The notes under the pieces were generated by a model, which searched no databases, was not told the origin of the DNA, and saw only the letters and a list, made by a program, of their open reading frames with translations. A DNA stretch of 64,000 bases. Origin: Arsukibacterium perlucidum DSM 18276. GTDB taxonomy: Bacteria; Pseudomonadota; Gammaproteobacteria; Enterobacterales; Alteromonadaceae. The stretch covers positions 124,001 to 188,000 of the forward strand of contig NZ_KB907704.1 in the NCBI RefSeq assembly GCF_000382165.1, written 5' to 3'. Made by a program: the position numbers and the translations under genes. This document shows positions 5,808 through 56,273 of this stretch, piece by piece; within the stretch, counting starts at the first letter, position 1, and each line of letters begins with the position of its first letter.

Positions 5808-7268
5808 GTGGCTGCTTTAAGTACTTTATATCCGCAACCATTATGGCAATGGTTTGAACAAATTTGTGCCATTCCTCACCCATCAAAACACGAACAGGCG
5901 TTAAGTCAGCATATTCAGCAGTGGGCCCGCAGGCAGGGTTTAAATGTAGTTGAGGACAAGGTAGGCAATCTTATTATCAAGAAACCGGCCACGCCGGGTA
6001 TGGAAAACCGTAAACCTGTGGTTATTCAGGCGCATTTAGATATGGTGCCGCAGAAAAATGCCGACAAAGTACACGACTTCAGCAAAGATCCTATCGAGGC
6101 CTATGTTGATGGTGACTGGGTAACAGCCAATGGCACTACCCTGGGTGCCGATAATGGCATTGGCATGGCCTCAGCGCTGGCGATTTTAGGCAGCCCGGAT
6201 GTTAAACATGGTCCGTTAGAGGTGCTGTTAACCATTGACGAAGAAGCCGGTATGACCGGCGCCTTTGGCCTGGAACCTGGCGTGTTGGAAGCTGAAATAC
6301 TCATTAATACCGATTCTGAGCAGGAAGGTGAAATTTATATGGGGTGTGCCGGCGGGGTAGATGCTGAATTCAGCGTACCTGTCAGCTGGCAGGATGCACC
6401 GGCAGGCAGCGAAGCCGTTACCCTCAGTTTAAGCGGCTTAAAAGGCGGCCATTCCGGGGTCAATATTCATTTAGGCCGGGGTAATGCCAACAAATTGCTG
6501 GCCCGCTTTTTAGTGGCTGAAGCGCGTGAGCTGGAACTGCAGCTAAGCGACTTATCTGGTGGTTCGCTCCGCAATGCCATTCCACGGGAAGCTTCTGTAA
6601 GCTTGTGTTTGCCGGCGGCGAAGCTGGATTTGCTGCAGCAGAAAATCACTATTTTTGAGCAGCTAGTACAGCAGGAACTGGCCGCAGTAGAGCCCGCAAT
6701 TAAATTCAGCCTGCGCCAAACCAGCCTGCCACAGCGGGTGATGACTCTCGCCAGCCAGCTAGCACTGTTAAACCTGTTACACGCCTGTCCTAATGGCGTA
6801 ATGCGCATGAGCGATGATATTCCCGGAGTTACCGAAACGTCGCTCAATATGGGGGTAATTCACACTGCAGCTGATCAGGTGCAGGTGCTGTGTTTAATTC
6901 GTTCGCTGATTGATTCAGGCCGGGAGCAGGTTGAAACCATGTTGGCTTCGCTGGCAGAACTGGCCGGGGCTGAAGTGAGTTTCAGTGGGGCTTATCCGGG
7001 CTGGAAGCCTGAGCCTGAATCGGCAGTGATGAAAATCGTAAACGATACCTACCAGGATATTTACCACAAACAACCGGTAATTATGGTGATCCACGCTGGT
7101 TTGGAATGCGGCTTATTTAAAAAGCCTTACCCGGATATGGACATGGTTTCGATTGGCCCGACTATTCGTTACCCACATGGCCCGGACGAAATGGTCAATA
7201 TTGAAACGGTTGGTCAGTACTGGCAATTGCTGTTGGCCGTGCTGGAACGGATCCCCGTGAAAGCCTGA
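5808..7268 (+). CDS. pepD: Cytosolic nonspecific dipeptidase (aminoacyl-histidine dipeptidase)
   Basis: 486 residues, the usual PepD length. It is an M20-family dinuclear zinc peptidase that splits Xaa-His and other dipeptides in the cytoplasm. Metal and catalytic motifs are all visible: QAHLDMVPQ (His76, Asp78), GADNGIGMA (Asp115), IDEEAGMTGA (Glu145/Glu146), NTDSE, LKGGHSGV in the lid domain and HAGLECG near the C-terminus. The start is GTG at 5808 with TCAGGAGT upstream. It appears to be a single-gene unit ending in the long hairpin at 7290-7321. Confidence 0.95.
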   Translation: MAALSTLYPQPLWQWFEQICAIPHPSKHEQALSQHIQQWARRQGLNVVEDKVGNLIIKKPATPGMENRKPVVIQAHLDMVPQKNADKVHDFSKDPIEAYVDGDWVTANGTTLGADNGIGMASALAILGSPDVKHGPLEVLLTIDEEAGMTGAFGLEPGVLEAEILINTDSEQEGEIYMGCAGGVDAEFSVPVSWQDAPAGSEAVTLSLSGLKGGHSGVNIHLGRGNANKLLARFLVAEARELELQLSDLSGGSLRNAIPREASVSLCLPAAKLDLLQQKITIFEQLVQQELAAVEPAIKFSLRQTSLPQRVMTLASQLALLNLLHACPNGVMRMSDDIPGVTETSLNMGVIHTAADQVQVLCLIRSLIDSGREQVETMLASLAELAGAEVSFSGAYPGWKPEPESAVMKIVNDTYQDIYHKQPVIMVIHAGLECGLFKKPYPDMDMVSIGPTIRYPHGPDEMVNIETVGQYWQLLLAVLERIPVKA

Positions 7269-11376: not shown

Positions 11377-11441
11377 GCAAGAGGGAATAGTCCGCTGAGG
11401 GTCAACATGGGGGCGAAGCTTGAAATGGTGGCCCCAGCTGG
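11377..11441 (-). repeat. Direct repeat copy B (3' end of intact tRNA and flank)
   Basis: Second copy of the 65-bp direct repeat. It begins inside the intact tRNA-Ile2 (last 16 nt) and runs into its downstream flank. The 62 bp between the copies contain two small hairpins: CAAAGC-ATT-GCTTTG at 11333-11347 and GCAACT-TT-AGTTGC at 11364-11377. Confidence 0.75.
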
Positions 11442-11502
11442 ACTCGAACCAGCGACCGATCGATTATGAGTCGAGCGCTCTAACCAACTGAGCTATGGGG
11501 CC
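11426..11502 (-). tRNA. tRNA-Ile2 with CAT anticodon (lysidine-modified)
   Basis: A 77-nt cloverleaf including an encoded CCA. The acceptor stem GGCCCCA pairs with TGGGGCC, the D-arm is GCTCAGTTGGTTAGAGC, and the T-arm is CTGGTTCGAGTCCAG. The anticodon loop CTCATAA has CAT at 11466-11468. The sequence closely resembles E. coli ileX rather than elongator or initiator Met tRNAs, so this should read AUA after TilS converts C34 to lysidine. The top pair of the anticodon stem is a C-T mismatch. It lies downstream of rpoD on the same strand. Confidence 0.88.
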
Positions 11503-16114: not shown

Positions 16115-17128
16115 ATGCGCGTATTAGGTATAGAAACATCTTGTGATGAAACCGCAATTGCTGTCTATGATGGCGAAAAAGGCTTATTAAGCCATGTTTT
16201 GTACAGCCAAATTCCGCTGCATGCCGATTACGGTGGCGTGGTGCCTGAGCTGGCATCGCGCGATCATGTTAAAAAAACCCTGCCGTTAATAAAGCAAGCG
16301 CTGCAGCAGGCTGGCCTTAATGCCAGCGATATCGACGGCGTTGCCTATACCGCCGGGCCCGGTTTAGCCGGTGCGTTGTTAGTGGGGGCCACGATAGGCC
16401 GCAGTCTGGCTTATGCCTGGCAAAAACCGGCTTTGGCAGTGCACCATATGGAAGGCCACCTACTGGCACCGATGCTGGAAGATAACCCGCCACCCTTTCC
16501 GTTTTTAGCGCTGCTGGTATCTGGTGGTCATACCCAGCTGGTGGGGGTAGAGGGAATTGGCCGTTATCAGTTGCTGGGCGAATCGATAGATGATGCGGCC
16601 GGTGAGGCTTTTGATAAAACCGCAAAACTGATGGGTCTGGATTACCCCGGTGGCCCGCTGCTGGCTAAGCTGGCGTTAAAGGGGGACAGTAAAAAATATA
16701 AGTTTCCGCGGCCGATGACCGACCGGCCCGGGCTCGACTTCAGTTTTAGCGGCCTGAAAACCTCTGCTGCCAATGTTATTGCCAAAGAAGGCAACAGTGA
16801 GCAGGTGCAGGCTGACATTGCTGCGTCATTTCAGCAGGCAGTGGTTGATACCTTAGTAATTAAATGCGAGCGGGCACTGGAGCAAACCGGTTATCAGCGT
16901 TTGGTTATTGCCGGCGGGGTAAGCGCTAATATTTCGCTGCGCGAGCAACTGGCGGTGCTGTTAAAGCAGCGCGGTGGCGAGGTGTATTATCCGCGCAAAG
17001 AGTTTTGTACAGATAATGGCGCAATGATTGCCTATGCCGGCTATCAGCGGTTACAAGCCGGTCAGCAACAAGACCTGACCATCGGGGTAACGCCGCGCTG
17101 GCCAATGCAGGATTTAGCGCCGGTCTGA
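16115..17128 (+). CDS. tsaD: tRNA N6-threonylcarbamoyladenosine transferase TsaD
   Basis: 337 residues, ASKHA-fold enzyme. It transfers threonylcarbamoyl from TC-AMP to A37 of ANN-decoding tRNAs, working with TsaB and TsaE. The family metal site HMEGH is at His111 and His115; a third ligand lies in FCTDNGAM near residue 297. [19 protein letters not shown] is the canonical N-terminus. It is divergent from rpsU, a widely conserved arrangement. Downstream, before convergent plsY, is the long hairpin repeat at 17141-17270. Confidence 0.98.
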
Positions 17129-17140
17129 ATAGAGAAAGAG

Positions 17141-17270
17141 CTATTAAAATAGGGGGGGTGGCTTCGGTTGCAACTCCCGCTTTGGCTCGCCACAGCAACT
17201 CGCTCGCGCTGGCGCACTCACTCAGACACTCTGTGGCGCCCAAATCGGGATTCCAACCTTGCTTTAATAG
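17141..17270. repeat. Long structured hairpin repeat, copy 1 (tsaD/plsY junction)
   Basis: Nested complementary arms span the whole convergent junction: CTATTAAA/TTTAATAG outermost (17141-17148, 17263-17270), GGTTG/CAACC (17166-17170, 17254-17258), CCCGCTTTGG/CCAAATCGGG (about 17177-17186, 17240-17249) and CGCCACAG/CTGTGGCG (17188-17195, 17231-17238). The central part contains AGCAACTCGCTCG and CACTCACTCAGACACT. A second copy at 56122-56214 shares the core but differs at paired positions in a compensatory way. It probably forms a bidirectional transcript-end structure. I do not recognise the family. Confidence 0.7.
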
Positions 17271-17292: not shown

Positions 17293-17898
17293 TCACTCTC
17301 GAATGCGTTTGGACTTATCCCATACTTTGCTTTCTTTGCCCTGATACAGCCGGACAATATTCTGGCGGTGGCGGGCGATAATCAGAATGCTTAGCATCAG
17401 TACCGGCACGGTATATAAAGGTTTAATCCACCAGGTAAACAACGGCGCCAGCGCTACGGTAATAATAGCGGCTAACGATGAGTAACCACTTAACGCCACT
17501 AACAGCACCCAGCTGGCAATCAGCAAGCCGGCTAAATCCAGGCCAATTGGCATCATGGCACCAAAGGCGGTAGCAACCGCTTTGCCACCTTTAAAACCAA
17601 AAAATACCGGGTATATATGACCTAGACAGGCACAGATGGCGATAGCACCCAGCCAGAGGGGCTCGATTTGCAGAAAATACGAGCCCCAAACCGGAATAGT
17701 GCCTTTTAAAATATCGAACAGTAATACCAGTACGGCCGGGAAAGCACCGCCAAGGCGCAGCACATTGGTGGCGCCGGGGTTACCCGAGCCATGAAAACGC
17801 GGGTCGGGCAGGCGAAATAACTGACAAACCAGTACTGCTGATGACACCGAGCCTAATAAATAGGCGGCGAACATCATAATAACAATCAGCAGGGTCAT
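17293..17898 (-). CDS. plsY: Acyl-phosphate:glycerol-3-phosphate acyltransferase PlsY
   Basis: 201 residues, integral membrane with about five helices. The family motifs are present: [13 protein letters not shown], the glycine-rich [12 protein letters not shown] and [12 protein letters not shown] loops that bind acyl phosphate and glycerol-3-phosphate. It makes lysophosphatidic acid, the first step of phospholipid synthesis; PlsC at 40611 performs the next acylation. It lies convergent to tsaD and divergent from folB. Confidence 0.97.
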
Positions 17899-50303: not shown

Positions 50304-52133
50304 ATGTTTATCCCGGTTAAAAGCGCCATACTGGCCAGCTTGCCAGTATTATTATTTCTCCATAGCAATGTTATGGCAGCTCCTGCCCAGCAAAGCCCTG
50401 TTACAAAGCAAAGCCCACTGCAGCAATTAACTGCGTCTGCTGAACAAGCAACGGTGTATACCTGCTCAATGCACCCGCATGTGCGCTCTACTAACCCTGA
50501 CGACCGTTGCCCTATTTGTGGCATGGCGCTGATTCCGGTAACCGTAGACGAAGCAGAAAATCACTCTGACCCATTTTCTGGCGAGCTTAGATTAAGTCCG
50601 CGTGCTTATGCGATGTTGCAACCTGAACTGACGCCGGTACGCCGGCAGCGGGCCGAGGGCAGTATTGCGCTGGTCGGGATGCTGGCGGCCGATCAGAGCC
50701 GGTTAAAAACCATCAGTGCCTGGACAGCCGGCCGGATTGACCAATTTTATCTCAGGAGCAGCGGGGTAGATGTTAAAGCCGGCGAGCCGATGGTAGAGAT
50801 TTTTAATCCTGATTTAATTGTTATTCAGCAGGAACTGGTGCAGGCCAAGCAGCTTGGCGCGGCCCGCGGCACCAGCCTGGCTGCCGACAGCACCCTTGCG
50901 GCGGCACGGCGGCGCCTGCGCTTACTGGGGGTGCCTGCTACTCAGATTGACGCTATTTTACAAAGTGAAGATTTGCAGGATACAGTGACGATTAGTGCAC
51001 CGGTGTCGGGCCGGGTGCTGGATAAACTGGTGAATGAGGGCGCTTATGTCAGTGCCGGCCAACCGCTGTTTACGGTGCTTGAGCTGGATAAAGTCTGGCT
51101 GGAACTGGAAGCGTTTGAGCATCAGCTGGCCGCAATTTATCCGGGACAGGCGCTGAGTGTGGAATTACTGGCACTGCCGGGCGAGCAACTGCAAGCTGAA
51201 GTATTGCTGCTGGAGCCGGTGGTGGATACCAACAGGCGTACTGTAAGGGTCCGGGCGTTGCTCGATAACCCGGATGGGCGCTTAAAGCCGGGCATGCTGG
51301 CCCGCGCAAGACTGATCGATAGCCTGGACGATGTCTTGCTAATCCCGGCATCAGCCGTGCTGCAAACCGGCCAGCGGGCGCTGGTGTATGTGCAATTGGC
51401 TGCAGACAACCCGACGTTCATTAGCCGTGAAATCACTCTCGGCCGGCGTTTTAACGGCCAGTATCAGGTGCTGTCCGGTCTTGCTGAAGGCGAGTTGGTC
51501 GTCAGTAAAGGCGCGTTCCGGCTGGATAGCGAGCTGCAAATACGTGGCCTGCCAAGTATGATGGCGCCGGATGGAGTAAGTTATGATCCGCATGCTGCGC
51601 ATCTACCTAATCAAAGCCCTGGTGCTAGCAACGAGGCAGATACCCCTGAAAATGCCAGCACACCGCAGCCAGCAGAGGATGATTTTCGCTTAACCGCAGC
51701 AGAAGAAACAACATTGCTGGCCGCTTATCAGCAGGCATATCTGGCATTGACAGAAGATAATCTGAAGGCGTGGCAACAGGCCATGGCAGCGTTTCACCAG
51801 CAGGTGGTAGCGATTAACTGGCCGGAAAACTTCCCTGGTATAGTGCGGGCACTGACCGTGGGCGCCGACCAGCTACAGCAGGTGACCAGCCTGGCTGAGG
51901 CAAGGCAACAGTTTTACCGGCATAACCTGGGGTTATTAAGGCTGGCCGAGCTTGGCGTACTGGCTGCGGGCTGGTATCAGGCCTATTGCCCGATGGCCCG
52001 CGACGGCGAGGGCGCTGCCTGGTTGCAACCGCAGGCTGAGCTGTTAAACCCGTATTTTGGCCCGGCGATGCTGCGTTGCGGTGATATCCAGCAGCGGTTC
52101 GATGCTAAGGAGCACGATCATGCCGGCCACTGA
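50304..52133 (+). CDS. cusB: RND periplasmic adaptor CusB with metal-binding N-terminus and DUF3347-like tail
   Basis: 609 residues. Signal peptide (about 1-25). Heavy-metal-binding domain with YTCSMHPHV (Cys54, His57) and RCPICGMALIPV (Cys69, Cys72). Membrane-fusion core (about 110-420): barrel-sandwich lipoyl halves VGMLAADQSRLKTISAWTAG and DTVTISAPVSGRVLDKLVNE, and beta-barrel RTVRVRALLDNPDGRLKPGM. The C-terminal ~140 residues (about 465-605; LAAYQQAYLALTEDNLKAWQ and similar helices) resemble DUF3347, another copper-linked domain. It would hand Cu(I) or Ag(I) to CusA. Overlaps cusA by 14 bp. Confidence 0.92.
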   Translation: MFIPVKSAILASLPVLLFLHSNVMAAPAQQSPVTKQSPLQQLTASAEQATVYTCSMHPHVRSTNPDDRCPICGMALIPVTVDEAENHSDPFSGELRLSPRAYAMLQPELTPVRRQRAEGSIALVGMLAADQSRLKTISAWTAGRIDQFYLRSSGVDVKAGEPMVEIFNPDLIVIQQELVQAKQLGAARGTSLAADSTLAAARRRLRLLGVPATQIDAILQSEDLQDTVTISAPVSGRVLDKLVNEGAYVSAGQPLFTVLELDKVWLELEAFEHQLAAIYPGQALSVELLALPGEQLQAEVLLLEPVVDTNRRTVRVRALLDNPDGRLKPGMLARARLIDSLDDVLLIPASAVLQTGQRALVYVQLAADNPTFISREITLGRRFNGQYQVLSGLAEGELVVSKGAFRLDSELQIRGLPSMMAPDGVSYDPHAAHLPNQSPGASNEADTPENASTPQPAEDDFRLTAAEETTLLAAYQQAYLALTEDNLKAWQQAMAAFHQQVVAINWPENFPGIVRALTVGADQLQQVTSLAEARQQFYRHNLGLLRLAELGVLAAGWYQAYCPMARDGEGAAWLQPQAELLNPYFGPAMLRCGDIQQRFDAKEHDHAGH

Positions 52134-55100
52134 GCAAAAGGTTAAATCATTGTTCGACCGTATGCTGGCTGGCTGCTTGAAACAGAAACTGCTGGTGGTA
52201 CTGCTAACTGGCTTGCTGTTAGTTGTTGGTGCTGCCTATGCGCCTTTCGGCTGGCACAGCGGTATGCCGCTTAGCCCGGTGGCGGTGGATGCCATTCCGA
52301 ATTTGGGTGAAAACCAGCAAATCGTTTTTACCGACTGGCCCGGCCGCTCGCCGCAGGATGTGGAAGATCAGCTTAGCTATCCGCTTAGTGTCGCCTTAAT
52401 GGGCGTGCCGGGCGTAAAAGACGTTCGAACCCTGTCGATGTTCGGCTTTTCCAGCATTGCCGTTATTTTTGATGAAGATATTGAGTTTTACTGGGCGCGC
52501 AGCCGCTTGCTGGAAAAACTGGCCAGTTTACCGGCCGATACCCTGCCAGACGGGGTGCAGCCTGCGCTCGGGCCCGATGCTACCGCCCTGGGTCAGGTGT
52601 TCTGGTACACCCTGGAAGGGCGCGACCCGGCCGGCAACCCTACCAGCGGCTGGGATTTGGAAGAAGTTCGCTCGGTGCAGGACTGGTACCTGCGCACCGG
52701 CTTACTGGCAGCAGAAGGTATCAGCGAAGTGGCCTCGATTGGTGGCTATCAGCGGGAATACCAGATTGAAGTCGACCCGGACTTACTGCGCATTCATCAG
52801 GTAACCCTGGCTGAGGTTAGCGCCGCGGTTATGGCGGCTAATCTGGATGTCAGTGCCGGCAGCCGGGAAATCAATGGCGTTGAATACCTTATTCGTGGCG
52901 TTGGTTTTATTAAAAACTTGCAGGATATCGAGCAGGCGGTGGTGCGGTTAGCTGCCGATCTGACCCCTATCCGGGTAGCCGATGTGGCCCGGGTGCAGTT
53001 CGGGCCGGCGGCCAGACGCGGTGCGCTGGATGTTAACGGTGCCGAAGCCGTTGGTGGCGTGGTGACGGTGCGCGAAGGCTACAACCCGCGCCAGGCAATT
53101 AGCAATGTGAAACAACGCTTGCAGGAAGTTAGCCGCGGCTTACCGGCCAAAGCCGTGATTGACTGGCAGCACACTTCCGTGGCCGAGGTTGATGCCTTTG
53201 CCCGCAGCCGGAAACTGCCGGTGTGGCAGGGGCGGGATGAGGCAGTGCAACAGGCCTGGCAGACTTTTTTACGCAGTGAGCCGCCCCAGGCCTGGCCTGC
53301 CTGGTTAACCCTGAGCCAGCTAACGGTAGTACCCTTTTATGATCGCAGTGAGTTAATTGCCGAAACCCTGGGTACCCTGCAGGACGCACTAACTCAACAG
53401 CTGTTGATCACCATGGTGGTAGTGCTGGCGATGCTGCTGCATTTACGGGCAGCGCTGGCGGTAAGTTTAATGCTGCCTGCAGCAGTGCTGCTAAGCTTTA
53501 TTGCCATGAAGCTGCTGGCAATAGACGCTAACATCGTCGCGCTGGCCGGTATTGCCATTGCGATTGGTACCATTGTCGATATGGGGATTATTGTCAGCGA
53601 AAACCTGCTGCGCCAACGCCAGCGTCAGCCGGATTTGCCAGCCACTGAGGCAGTGTTACTGGCAGGCAAGGAAGTGGGGCCGGCTATTCTTACTGCCATT
53701 AGCACTACCGTAATCAGCTTTTTGCCGGTATTTACCATGACCGGCGCTGAAGGCAAGCTATTTGGTCCGTTAGCCTACACTAAAACCTTTGTGTTGCTGG
53801 CGGCGGCGTTACTGGCGTTAACGGTGTTACCGGTGCTGCTAAACTCATTATTCAATTGGCGTAAGCAGGATGTAAGCCATGGCTGGCGCTACTGGCTGCT
53901 GAACAGCCGGCGTTGGTGGTTATTAGCGGCACTGGTTGTGCTTGTTGTCTGGCTGGGTTCAGCGCTGCTGTGGCTGGCGACAACACTGTATGCCCTGGTG
54001 TTGTTGTGGCAACAATATAAGGCGCCGTTACTTACCAGGTTTAGTGAGCAGTGGCCGGCTTTTGGCCGCTATCGCAGCCACTGGCAGCAGCTTGCTGGCC
54101 GTTTACCGCTAACGGCCTGGCGGTTCGGCCACGGCTTACTGGTAATAGCGGTACTGTTGAGTGTGGTGACCTTGCTCAGTCAGGTCTGGTTGCCACTCGG
54201 GCCGATGCAAGGTGCCCTGGCGAACTGGGGCTTTGTGCTGTTGCTGCTGGCTTTGGTGCTCGGGTTTTTCTTCGTTTTTCTATGGGTTTACCCAACTTTA
54301 CTTAAGGGCTGTTTACGGCTGAAGTGGTTATTTCTGCTGCTGCCACTGCTGTTAGTGGGGTATGGCAGTACCGTTTGGCTTGGTGCGCAGCATACCTTAA
54401 GCTGGCTGCCCGGGCTTTCTGAAAAACTGACCCAACGCTACCCTGGCCTGGGCCGTGAGTTTATGCCGGCGCTGGACGAGGGGGCGTTTTTGTTAATGCC
54501 AAGCCTGATGCCACATGCCTCGATAGCGGAAGCGCTGGCGGTATTGCAGCAACAGGACAAGGCCATCGCGGCCATACCTGAAGTGCGTTCGGTGGTCGGG
54601 AAAATTGGCCGGGCTGATACAGCGCTGGACCCGGCGCCACTGGGCATGATTGAGACGGTGATCCAGTATCACAGCGAATTTAAAACCGATGCCAATGGCC
54701 GCCGGCTGTACTTTCGCTTTGATAAGCTCAGCAATGACTTTGTGCGCGATGACGCTGGCGAACTGATTGCCGATAGCAGGGGCAGGCCTTACCGACAGTG
54801 GCGTGAACACATCAGCTCGCCAGATGATATCTGGCAGGAGATTGTGCAGGCTGCGCGGCTGCCGGGGGTAACCTCGGCACCGAAGCTGCAGCCAATAGAG
54901 ACCCGCTTACTGATGCTACAAACCGGTATGCGGGCGGCGATGGGGGTTAAGTTGTCGGCGCCGGATCTGGCGACACTTGACCAGTTGGCGCAGCAGCTGG
55001 AAGTATTACTGCGCGAAGCACCAGGCGTGCAGCCCGCTTCGGTTAGTGCCGAGCGGGTAGTCGGCCAGCCATATCTGGAAATTCACCCTGACCGTGAAGC

Positions 55101-56109
55101 CATTGCCCGCTATGGTCTGAGTATGCAGCAAGTGCAACAAACACTGGCCAGCGCTATTGGTGGCATGGACGCCGGACGCTCGGTTGAAGGGCGCGAGCGT
55201 TATGGAATTACCGTGCGTTATATGCGGGAGCGGCGCGATACGCTGGAACAGCTGTCGGAGGTACTAATCGATACCCCGGCCGGCTACCCGGTACCGCTAA
55301 CCCAACTGGCCGACATTCGCTATCAGCGTGGCCCGCAGATGATCCGCTCAGAGAACACTTTTTTAACGGCTTATGTTACTTTTGGTAGCAAACCAGGCTG
55401 GGCAGAAGTAGAGGTGGTTGACGCGGTGGCGGCGTATCTGGACAGTACCCTGCAAGCGGGTGACTGGCAACTGCCCGCTGGCGCCAGTTACAGCTTTGCC
55501 GGCAGCTTTGAAAACCAACAGCGGGCGGCTACCACCTTGCTATGGGTGGTGCCGCTGTCGTTACTGCTGATTTTTATGCTGCTGTATCTGCAGTTCCGGC
55601 GGGTGAGTAGCACCCTGATTATCTTCAGCAGCATCGCTGTCGCCTGGGCCGGCGGCTTTATTATGCTCGACTGGTTTGCCCAAAGCTGGTTTTTAAATTT
55701 CAGCCTGTTTGATACTAACCTGCGCCAACTGTTTCAGTTGCAGTCGTACAATTTAAGCATTGCGGTATGGGTCGGCTTTCTGGCGCTATTTGGCATCGCG
55801 GTGGATGATGGTGTGGTGATGGCCAGTTATCTGAAACAGCAATTTGCCGATGCCAGGCCGGCAAACCGCTCTGAGGTAAGAACCCTGGTAATACAGGCCG
55901 CCATGAAACGTATTCGCCCTTGCCTAATGACCTCGGCTACCACCATTTTGGCGCTGTTGCCGGTGTTAACCGCTACTGGCCGTGGTGCGGATTTAATGAT
56001 CCCCATGGCGATACCAACCTTAGGTGGCATGCTGTTTGTGCTGCTTAGTGTGCTGATGGTACCGGTGTTGTATTGTGCGGTGGAAGAGAGGAGGGTTTCC
56101 CCTGAGTAA
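52120..56109 (+). CDS. cusA: CusA-family heavy-metal RND pump, enlarged
   Basis: 1329 residues from ATG 52120 (TAAGGAG upstream; the frame stays open further left inside cusB). Typical CusA/CzcA motifs: ENQQIVFTDWPGRSPQDVED, LSYPLSVALMGVPGVKDVRT, GIAIAIGTIVDMGIIVSENL, FALLGIAVDDG-like LFGIAVDDGVVM, and GREFMPALDEGAFLLMPSLM. E. coli CusA has 1047 residues; here ~200 residues between the first membrane bundle and the second periplasmic half (about 575-775) carry several extra hydrophobic segments, and further insertions follow. It exports Cu(I)/Ag(I) or divalent metals with proton antiport. The outer-membrane partner is not adjacent. Confidence 0.93.
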   Translation: MPATEQKVKSLFDRMLAGCLKQKLLVVLLTGLLLVVGAAYAPFGWHSGMPLSPVAVDAIPNLGENQQIVFTDWPGRSPQDVEDQLSYPLSVALMGVPGVKDVRTLSMFGFSSIAVIFDEDIEFYWARSRLLEKLASLPADTLPDGVQPALGPDATALGQVFWYTLEGRDPAGNPTSGWDLEEVRSVQDWYLRTGLLAAEGISEVASIGGYQREYQIEVDPDLLRIHQVTLAEVSAAVMAANLDVSAGSREINGVEYLIRGVGFIKNLQDIEQAVVRLAADLTPIRVADVARVQFGPAARRGALDVNGAEAVGGVVTVREGYNPRQAISNVKQRLQEVSRGLPAKAVIDWQHTSVAEVDAFARSRKLPVWQGRDEAVQQAWQTFLRSEPPQAWPAWLTLSQLTVVPFYDRSELIAETLGTLQDALTQQLLITMVVVLAMLLHLRAALAVSLMLPAAVLLSFIAMKLLAIDANIVALAGIAIAIGTIVDMGIIVSENLLRQRQRQPDLPATEAVLLAGKEVGPAILTAISTTVISFLPVFTMTGAEGKLFGPLAYTKTFVLLAAALLALTVLPVLLNSLFNWRKQDVSHGWRYWLLNSRRWWLLAALVVLVVWLGSALLWLATTLYALVLLWQQYKAPLLTRFSEQWPAFGRYRSHWQQLAGRLPLTAWRFGHGLLVIAVLLSVVTLLSQVWLPLGPMQGALANWGFVLLLLALVLGFFFVFLWVYPTLLKGCLRLKWLFLLLPLLLVGYGSTVWLGAQHTLSWLPGLSEKLTQRYPGLGREFMPALDEGAFLLMPSLMPHASIAEALAVLQQQDKAIAAIPEVRSVVGKIGRADTALDPAPLGMIETVIQYHSEFKTDANGRRLYFRFDKLSNDFVRDDAGELIADSRGRPYRQWREHISSPDDIWQEIVQAARLPGVTSAPKLQPIETRLLMLQTGMRAAMGVKLSAPDLATLDQLAQQLEVLLREAPGVQPASVSAERVVGQPYLEIHPDREAIARYGLSMQQVQQTLASAIGGMDAGRSVEGRERYGITVRYMRERRDTLEQLSEVLIDTPAGYPVPLTQLADIRYQRGPQMIRSENTFLTAYVTFGSKPGWAEVEVVDAVAAYLDSTLQAGDWQLPAGASYSFAGSFENQQRAATTLLWVVPLSLLLIFMLLYLQFRRVSSTLIIFSSIAVAWAGGFIMLDWFAQSWFLNFSLFDTNLRQLFQLQSYNLSIAVWVGFLALFGIAVDDGVVMASYLKQQFADARPANRSEVRTLVIQAAMKRIRPCLMTSATTILALLPVLTATGRGADLMIPMAIPTLGGMLFVLLSVLMVPVLYCAVEERRVSPE

Positions 56110-56121
56110 GAAGTCGCGATC

Positions 56122-56214
56122 GACTGCAATACCCCATTTGGCTTGCCACAGCAACTCGTTCGAGCTGACGCCCTCACTCAGACACTCTGTGGCAACCAAA
56201 TCGGGTTTCCAGTC
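56122..56214. repeat. Long structured hairpin repeat, copy 2 (cusA/nhaC junction)
   Basis: Same architecture as 17141-17270: GACTG/CAGTC (56122-56126, 56210-56214), CCATTTGG/CCAAATCGG, TGCCACAG/CTGTGGCA (56144-56151, 56187-56194), with the core AGCAACTCG and CCTCACTCAGACACT in the same places. Pairs that differ from copy 1 change on both sides. Also located between two convergent genes. Confidence 0.7.
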
Positions 56215-56273
56215 TCACGCTTCAGCTAGCAAGCGAGAACCGGATTACCCTAAGCCGACTGAACAACGCTAAA

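Follow-up and report, generated by a model that had tools for sequence, protein, structure and literature searches.

A dispersed palindrome family with varied arms and a nearly invariant, strand-specific tip in Rheinheimera and Arsukibacterium

In the window, i.e., the whole stretch of 64,000 nucleotides from Arsukibacterium perlucidum analyzed here, a long palindrome lies at two junctions of convergent genes: between a tsaD-like and a plsY-like gene (copy 1), and between a CusA-like and an NhaC-like gene (copy 2). These gene names are readings of the translations, not results of a family search. M denotes the minus strand of the window copies and P the opposite strand, while R1 is a covariance model of the ~95-nt palindrome built from 32 copies.

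16115..17128, plus strand: tsaD-like ORF, convergent with copy 1; orthologues in 31/31 genus genomes
17141..17164, no strand: tsaD-side outer flank of copy 1 (from sequence and fold)
17165..17259, minus strand (M strand = minus): palindrome copy 1; R1 match of 111.9 bits
17192..17202, minus strand: 3' half of the copy 1 tip motif on M, CGAGTTGCTGT (from sequence and alignment A2)
17203..17220, minus strand: variable apical hairpin of copy 1, loop c(GCCA)g
17221..17235, minus strand: 5' half of the copy 1 tip motif on M, CACAGAGTGTCTGAG (from sequence and motif count)
17260..17270, no strand: plsY-side outer flank of copy 1, complementary to 17141-17148 (from sequence and fold)
17293..17898, minus strand: plsY-like ORF, convergent neighbour of copy 1
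52057..56109, plus strand: CusA-like ORF, convergent with copy 2 (start codon taken from the mechanical ORF list)
56121..56215, minus strand (M strand = minus): palindrome copy 2, loop c(GTCA)g; R1 match of 102.2 bits
56274..57737, minus strand: NhaC-like ORF, convergent neighbour of copy 2

On the plus strand, the outer arms of copy 1 are GGTTG (17166-17170) and CAACC (17254-17258) and its inner arms CGCCACAG (17188-17195) and CTGTGGCG (17231-17238); those of copy 2 are GACTG (56122-56126) and CAGTC (56210-56214) outside and TGCCACAG/CTGTGGCA inside. The sequence is thus as the original prediction had it, with two copies, the same arms, paired differences and a convergent tsaD/plsY junction. 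The extent proposed for copy 1 (17141-17270) has to be narrowed: the palindrome itself spans 17165-17259, and the remainder consists of locus-specific outer flanks, of which CTATTAAA at 17141-17148 is complementary to TTTAATAG at 17263-17270. Likewise, the sequences predicted to be kept as loops are indeed conserved, but they form an internal loop specific to one strand (AGTGTCTGAG / GAGTTG, minus strand) and not the apical loop, which belongs to a variable hairpin above it. Fold z-scores over 200 dinucleotide shuffles were -2.13 (plus strand) and -4.40 (minus strand) for copy 1 with its flanks, and -4.78 and -4.88 respectively for copy 2. Half of another palindrome (AACCGGATTACCCTAAGCCGAC) adjoins copy 2 at 56234-56256, and two relatives (G007 and G009) hold longer forms of that palindrome at this site, with a GGTAATCCGGTT partner.

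The two copies belong to a real dispersed palindrome family. R1 matched the window's genome 27 times at E<=1 (24 of them at E<=1e-4), and the 14-mer CACAGAGTGTCTGA, allowing up to 1 mismatch, occurred 26 times in the 4.0 Mb genome, always inside an R1 match (reversed control: 0). Copies in relatives, chosen beforehand as a test of the prediction, were found as well: 26 of the 31 genomes searched in the genus (Rheinheimera/Arsukibacterium) carry R1 matches at E<=1e-4, and 22 of the 31 have at least 12-31 each, these counts being lower bounds because the search scores a limited number of candidates. At the same threshold R1 found no match in G003, G004, G010, G019 and G023; despite this, blastn located two places in G023, one of them a copy with the long apical domain described below. 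Outside the genus, blastn of the element against 16 genomes of other genera gave 0 matches. A scan of named genome contigs matched at least 114 stretches, and the 80 matches listed all came from Rheinheimera, Arsukibacterium, one Alishewanella jeotgali contig and MAGs named only Gammaproteobacteria. Searches of viral contigs, plasmids, phages and E. coli genomes returned no match, and spread via plasmid or phage was rejected on the first three of these. Among 26 copies of the window's own genome, the closest pair is 89% alike (median 67%); thus no recent transposition is visible in this genome. The open-access literature yielded no description of this repeat or its motif strings, and no published name for it.

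At the level of the fold, 94.3% of 654 paired cells in 24 copies of this genome (matches at E<=1e-10) form standard pairs and 22 of the 28 pairs show double changes, figures that lean towards the structure since related copies were aligned by fitting them to the model. Double-change cells numbered 90, against 23.7+-4.0 in shuffles (0/500 as high), so the paired positions do not vary independently; control structures slid by 1-3 columns gave only 31-53% pairing. Even the stem beside the tip changes together with its partner, from CACAG/CTGTG to CGGGG/CCCCG in one copy. Pairing is thus kept, as predicted; on their own, however, the paired substitutions fail to demonstrate that the fold is selected, since they can also arise when replication switches template from one arm to the other (PMC8604942 and PMC8794818).

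Strand asymmetry and a fixed tip are better evidence of selection. M was more stable than P in 26/26 copies, by a mean of 9.4 kcal/mol (random windows, sd 5.5), and with DNA energies in 25/26. G.T cells outnumbered A.C cells by 39 to 13 (p 0.0004 if cells were independent). The contig C25 copy, which has lost half its tip, was left out of these counts as well as of the flank/skew and copy-similarity counts, while E25 and E26, two matches cut short by the model, were kept in the stability count and dropped from the flank test.

The tip, AGTGTyTGAG ... GAGTTr, is nearly invariant while the arms vary. Its closing purines were A..G in 184 and G..A in 5 (mixed in 0) of the 189 distinct instances counted, all of them standard-length tips with 5/7 arm pairs (the shorter tip of L045 in G018 was left out). 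Above the tip, 117 distinct apical sequences gave loops of the types GNA (32), GNYA (31), GNRA (27) and other (27) under RNA energies, and 35, 27, 25 and 30 respectively under DNA energies; a c(GN(N)A)g loop with at least 2 flanking pairs was present in 84 of the 117, compared with 5.5 in shuffles. RNA tetraloops of the GNRA kind want a purine at the third position, while cGNAg and cGNNAg are unusually stable DNA hairpin loops. The loop statistics and the orientation data below fit a DNA fold better than an RNA fold, short of proof, the argument drawing on related copies and on a general stability rule for DNA loops.

Some copies (L014, L021, L023, L027 and L046; L123 and L142 at tsaD) hold a long (~80 nt) apical domain, ACAAATTCGTCwGGAACGAATTTGAACAGCTTTAGCTGGC, which can be present or absent between orthologues of a single locus. 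A nested REP as the source of this domain was rejected: its motif matched twice in the scanned stretches of this genome, both times within elements, and 0 times in 50 Y1 loci. A hairpin in one Y1 locus (L058) is similar to part of the domain.

Copies favour convergent gene ends, as predicted: of 98 scorable named loci, 43 were convergent and 5 divergent, while the corresponding numbers among 155 background gaps were 27 and 39 (p 7e-6 and 3e-5, values that are too small because gene calls were longest ORFs, the background was this genome only and the named loci include orthologues; 2 of the 27 own copies were left out of the scoring). This enrichment would suit an element that works as RNA, its M-strand transcript being a structured 3' untranslated element or a small RNA (e.g., in mRNA-end protection or processing) with pairing selected at the RNA level. 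The M polarity, with its G.U pairs and covarying purine-purine positions, is as compatible with RNA as with DNA, and in Yersinia transcript levels are reported to change where ERIC has inserted at the 3' ends of genes (PMC10969869). Yet in tandem gene pairs M was the sense strand of the upstream gene in just 28 of 63 (20 of 50 named loci and 8 of 13 here; p 0.45), the flips at one locus described below would swap the transcribed strand, and the third loop base is a pyrimidine as often as a purine, unlike in GNRA loops. Membership of a structured RNA family in Rfam was rejected: the element itself stayed below the gathering threshold, with chance-level hits alone (mir-312 at E 0.18 and SNORD56 at E 3.8), and 8 loci with relatives gave 0 matches. 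Without an Rfam match, an orientation bias to neighbours or apical loops that follow GNRA, the small RNA-like nature once proposed is unsupported, and a role as RNA appears rather unlikely overall. The only tRNA in the window, and its only Rfam family over threshold, is a tRNA-Met (CAT) at 11426-11502 on the minus strand. The strand of the element showed no preference relative to GC skew (54/107).

The convergent enrichment would also be expected of a bidirectional intrinsic terminator that multiplied, and an ordinary terminator hairpin can replace the element in relatives: at the copy 2 site G001 has a plain terminator hairpin where the element stands in G046 and G007, oriented as it is here, and in G009, reversed, and after frmB such a hairpin stands in G003, G016 and G010, where the element is absent. 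However, only 6 of 24 copies have a T-run (6 T among 8 bases) no farther than 24 nt from one of their ends, and no terminator-like site was found at either window copy, for which reasons an intrinsic terminator was rejected; moreover intrinsic termination needs no fixed tip. We consider this reading very improbable.

At single loci the element is present or absent, and lies in either orientation. In 30 of the 31 genus genomes the tsaD-plsY locus could be fetched: 11 had the element in M orientation, seven in P (one degraded), two held remnants and 10 were empty. For frmA-frmB (also 30/31), the main subfamily was in M orientation in 11 genomes and in P in nine, another subfamily was present in four, and six were empty. 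M and P copies were 95% alike in their arms at tsaD (11 M and 6 P) and 85% alike at frmA (15 M including other subfamilies, and 9 P), against 75-80% for other loci; thus, judged by sequence, opposite orientations at one locus look like flips of a single lineage rather than separate insertions. On a tree of two neighbouring genes in 29 genomes, at least five and at least seven orientation changes plus four presence changes were required, minima for orientation that could be lower if species exchanged genes. Half-element remnants adjoin full copies. The tsaD and plsY stop codons are 164 bp apart here and 0-1 bp apart in close relatives (G044, G005 and G022). Occupied and empty tsaD sites could not be aligned in their flanks, and no target-site duplication was identified. 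Such presence and absence between relatives would reflect movement of the element, though not recently in this genome.

Several features at these loci recall template switching. The outer flanks, specific to each locus, are nevertheless complementary: over 24 copies the mean duplex energy was -6.2 kcal/mol, against -3.9+-0.39 kcal/mol for permuted pairs (0/10,000 as low). Insertion into the loop of a pre-existing terminator, which such flanks suggested, was rejected since at tsaD the element-free relatives (G044, G005 and G022) have no palindrome. At frmA, G000 has AGAGAC/GTCTCT where G014 has GGAC/GTCC, which looks like the copying of one arm onto its partner. When it acts on inverted repeats, template switching is reported to homogenize arms and invert spacers (PMC8604942) and to create and perhaps maintain hairpins (PMC8794818, whose authors regard loop inversions as rare and the part it plays in maintaining short stems as less clear). 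Template switching would account for the paired substitutions and the flips; the fixed tip and the strand polarity would need another explanation.

Indeed pairing and flips could be explained by template switching alone, with no binding protein. A neutral quasi-palindrome of this kind, devoid of function, would draw support from the frmA arm homogenization, the complementary locus-specific flanks, the flips and the published template-switch signatures (PMC8604942 and PMC8794818). It leaves unexplained ~27 dispersed copies, a fixed unpaired tip amid changing arms, the strand asymmetry, and tips common to another genus, which makes it quite improbable in our judgement.

Some loci hold more than one element. 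Inside an apparent frmA-frmB operon, in several species and in both orientations, a frmB-like gene has an element on either side (L101, 9563-9657 and 10553-10643). A gene cassette between copies ~990 bp apart was considered and rejected, as the placed pairs (G000, G007, G014, G015 and G046) proved to be this frmB-like gene flanked by elements. In L108, inverted copies at 6526-6616 and 6647-6745 are 30 bp apart, and close inverted pairs occur also in G016 (L044) and, ~330 bp apart, in G545.

Such close inverted pairs would fit a REP/BIME mobilized by a RAYT (TnpA_REP) transposase. REP/BIME/REPIN elements are likewise dispersed palindromes at gene ends, recognized strand-specifically on folded single-stranded DNA with mismatches (PMC8266576), and Y1-transposase (PF01797) matches were found in 14 of the 16 genus genomes searched, with 1-6 matches each. 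RAYT genes, on the other hand, are said to have their REPs on either side in every case (PMC2817692), yet not one of 30 Y1 loci retrieved out of 40 places, with 1.5 kb to each side, held the tip motif CACAGAGTGTCTGAG within 2 mismatches, and three carriers of the element (G006, G012 and G082) had no PF01797 match, while other carriers do have one; G006 and G012 hold at least 21 and 15 R1 matches respectively. RAYT mobilization was rejected on these two grounds. Furthermore, the element is ~95 nt long, against 20-40 nt for REPs (PMC3733652), has no GTAG/GTGG-type head at either end (alignments A1-A3, by eye) and no adjoining RAYT. The REP-like character once suggested is apt only in the loose sense of a dispersed palindrome, and a RAYT-driven REP is among the least probable readings, with hardly any weight left to it.

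ERIC is similar in kind: it too is a dispersed, intergenic, non-coding imperfect palindrome of ~100-130 bp, with tens of copies (copy numbers from PMC10969869) and no known mover. By sequence, membership of ERIC was rejected, since blastn in distant mode against 20,395 E. coli records gave 0 matches to the element at E<=0.01. Unlike ERIC, the element has arms of any sequence around a fixed tip and flips in place. ERIC makes a TA target duplication, which was not seen for the element, and we know of no mover for palindromes of the ERIC kind. MITEs are similarly short, non-coding and dispersed, with inverted repeats; for the element no fixed terminal repeat, target duplication or parent IS/transposase with the same ends was found (only Y1 transposases were sought). 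By way of analogy, integron attC sites would share with it a structure conserved over sequence, one folded strand and a variable terminal structure, whereas the element occurs as dispersed single copies.

We give roughly even chances to the following reading: the element would be a non-autonomous dispersed DNA palindrome, ERIC- or REP-like in kind but a separate family, whose arms are homogenized and flipped by template switching and whose tip is kept for a putative binding protein. The M strand, single-stranded or extruded as a cruciform, would fold into one long hairpin, the arms being able to take many sequences provided that they pair, and template switching at replication would homogenize, extend and flip them in place. 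The tip would be the internal loop AGTGTyTGAG / GAGTTr, capped by a mini-hairpin of the c(GNA)g or c(GNNA)g type and retained because a putative DNA-hairpin-binding protein recognizes it; that protein might occasionally move or maintain the element, and copies would build up at gene 3' ends. No mover was found among the Y1 transposases looked for.

Within one clade, the family shows which part of a palindrome is kept (the tip), which is free (the arm sequence) and on which strand, and its copies change orientation in place within that clade. The M-strand tip hairpin offers a concrete bait for the putative protein, with the P strand as a built-in control. It also advises caution, as compensatory changes in bacterial hairpins may stem from template switching and need not mean RNA function.

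Beyond the genus, relatives of the tip are few. R1 run on 295 genomes sampled in the order had matches in three, two of them in the genus; the third, G082, from another genus of the family, has three weak places (~32 bits by R1) with, on reading, the same tip and other arms. Across 369 genomes of the class, the bare tip pattern matched 19 times in G000 and 19 times in 17 others, against 14 control matches outside G000 (368 genomes); therefore most outside matches are chance. Those judged otherwise were in G559 (3 copies) and, by fold or eye, in G425 and G325. A tip-only model, R2, built with G082 and G559 sequences included, found 7 of the 369 class genomes at E<=0.001 (~0.4 false genomes expected), six of them outside the genus: G545 (eight places), G475 (five), G345 and G425 (two each), and G541 and G482 (one each). 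These matches are weak (best E per genome 1.6e-5 to 5e-4, as rough E-values), and the repeated copies within genomes argue against chance. G559 was missed by the strict R2 filter; on direct search its copies scored 43-45 bits, two of them being in the model. A Variovorax replicon (Betaproteobacteria) has the tip by eye, but at only 14.7 bits (E 0.14), and matches in Burkholderia and Aeromonas cover only a T-rich hairpin. At the outside loci a c(GN(N)A)g loop is present in every one of 20 distinct apical sequences (flanking pairs not required; no shuffled control), and the neighbours of the tip relatives are, by eye, ordinary chromosomal genes, with no transposase noticed.

The outside tips may share descent with those of the genus. 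A broader reading, tentative and in our view somewhat unlikely, would make the Rheinheimera palindrome the short version of a proteobacterial superfamily not yet described, whose defining feature is a DNA-hairpin tip (GTGTyTGAG / GCGAGTT, topped by a cGN(N)Ag mini-hairpin) that would be the site of a putative non-RAYT single-strand or cruciform DNA enzyme tolerating almost any arms, with copies inverting in place as part of their life. We lowered our estimate of it because the bare tip pattern outside the genus was barely above control. Several tip relatives are of greater length, with a CTTTCTTTTGGTTACTTTTCTTTGG-like hairpin at their end. For other genera, open-access papers containing the strings of their composite palindromes were not found; these long composite palindromes (L335-L337, L362, L377, L380 and L382) end in a T-rich GGTTACTTTTCTTTGG hairpin and are repeated in several genomes.
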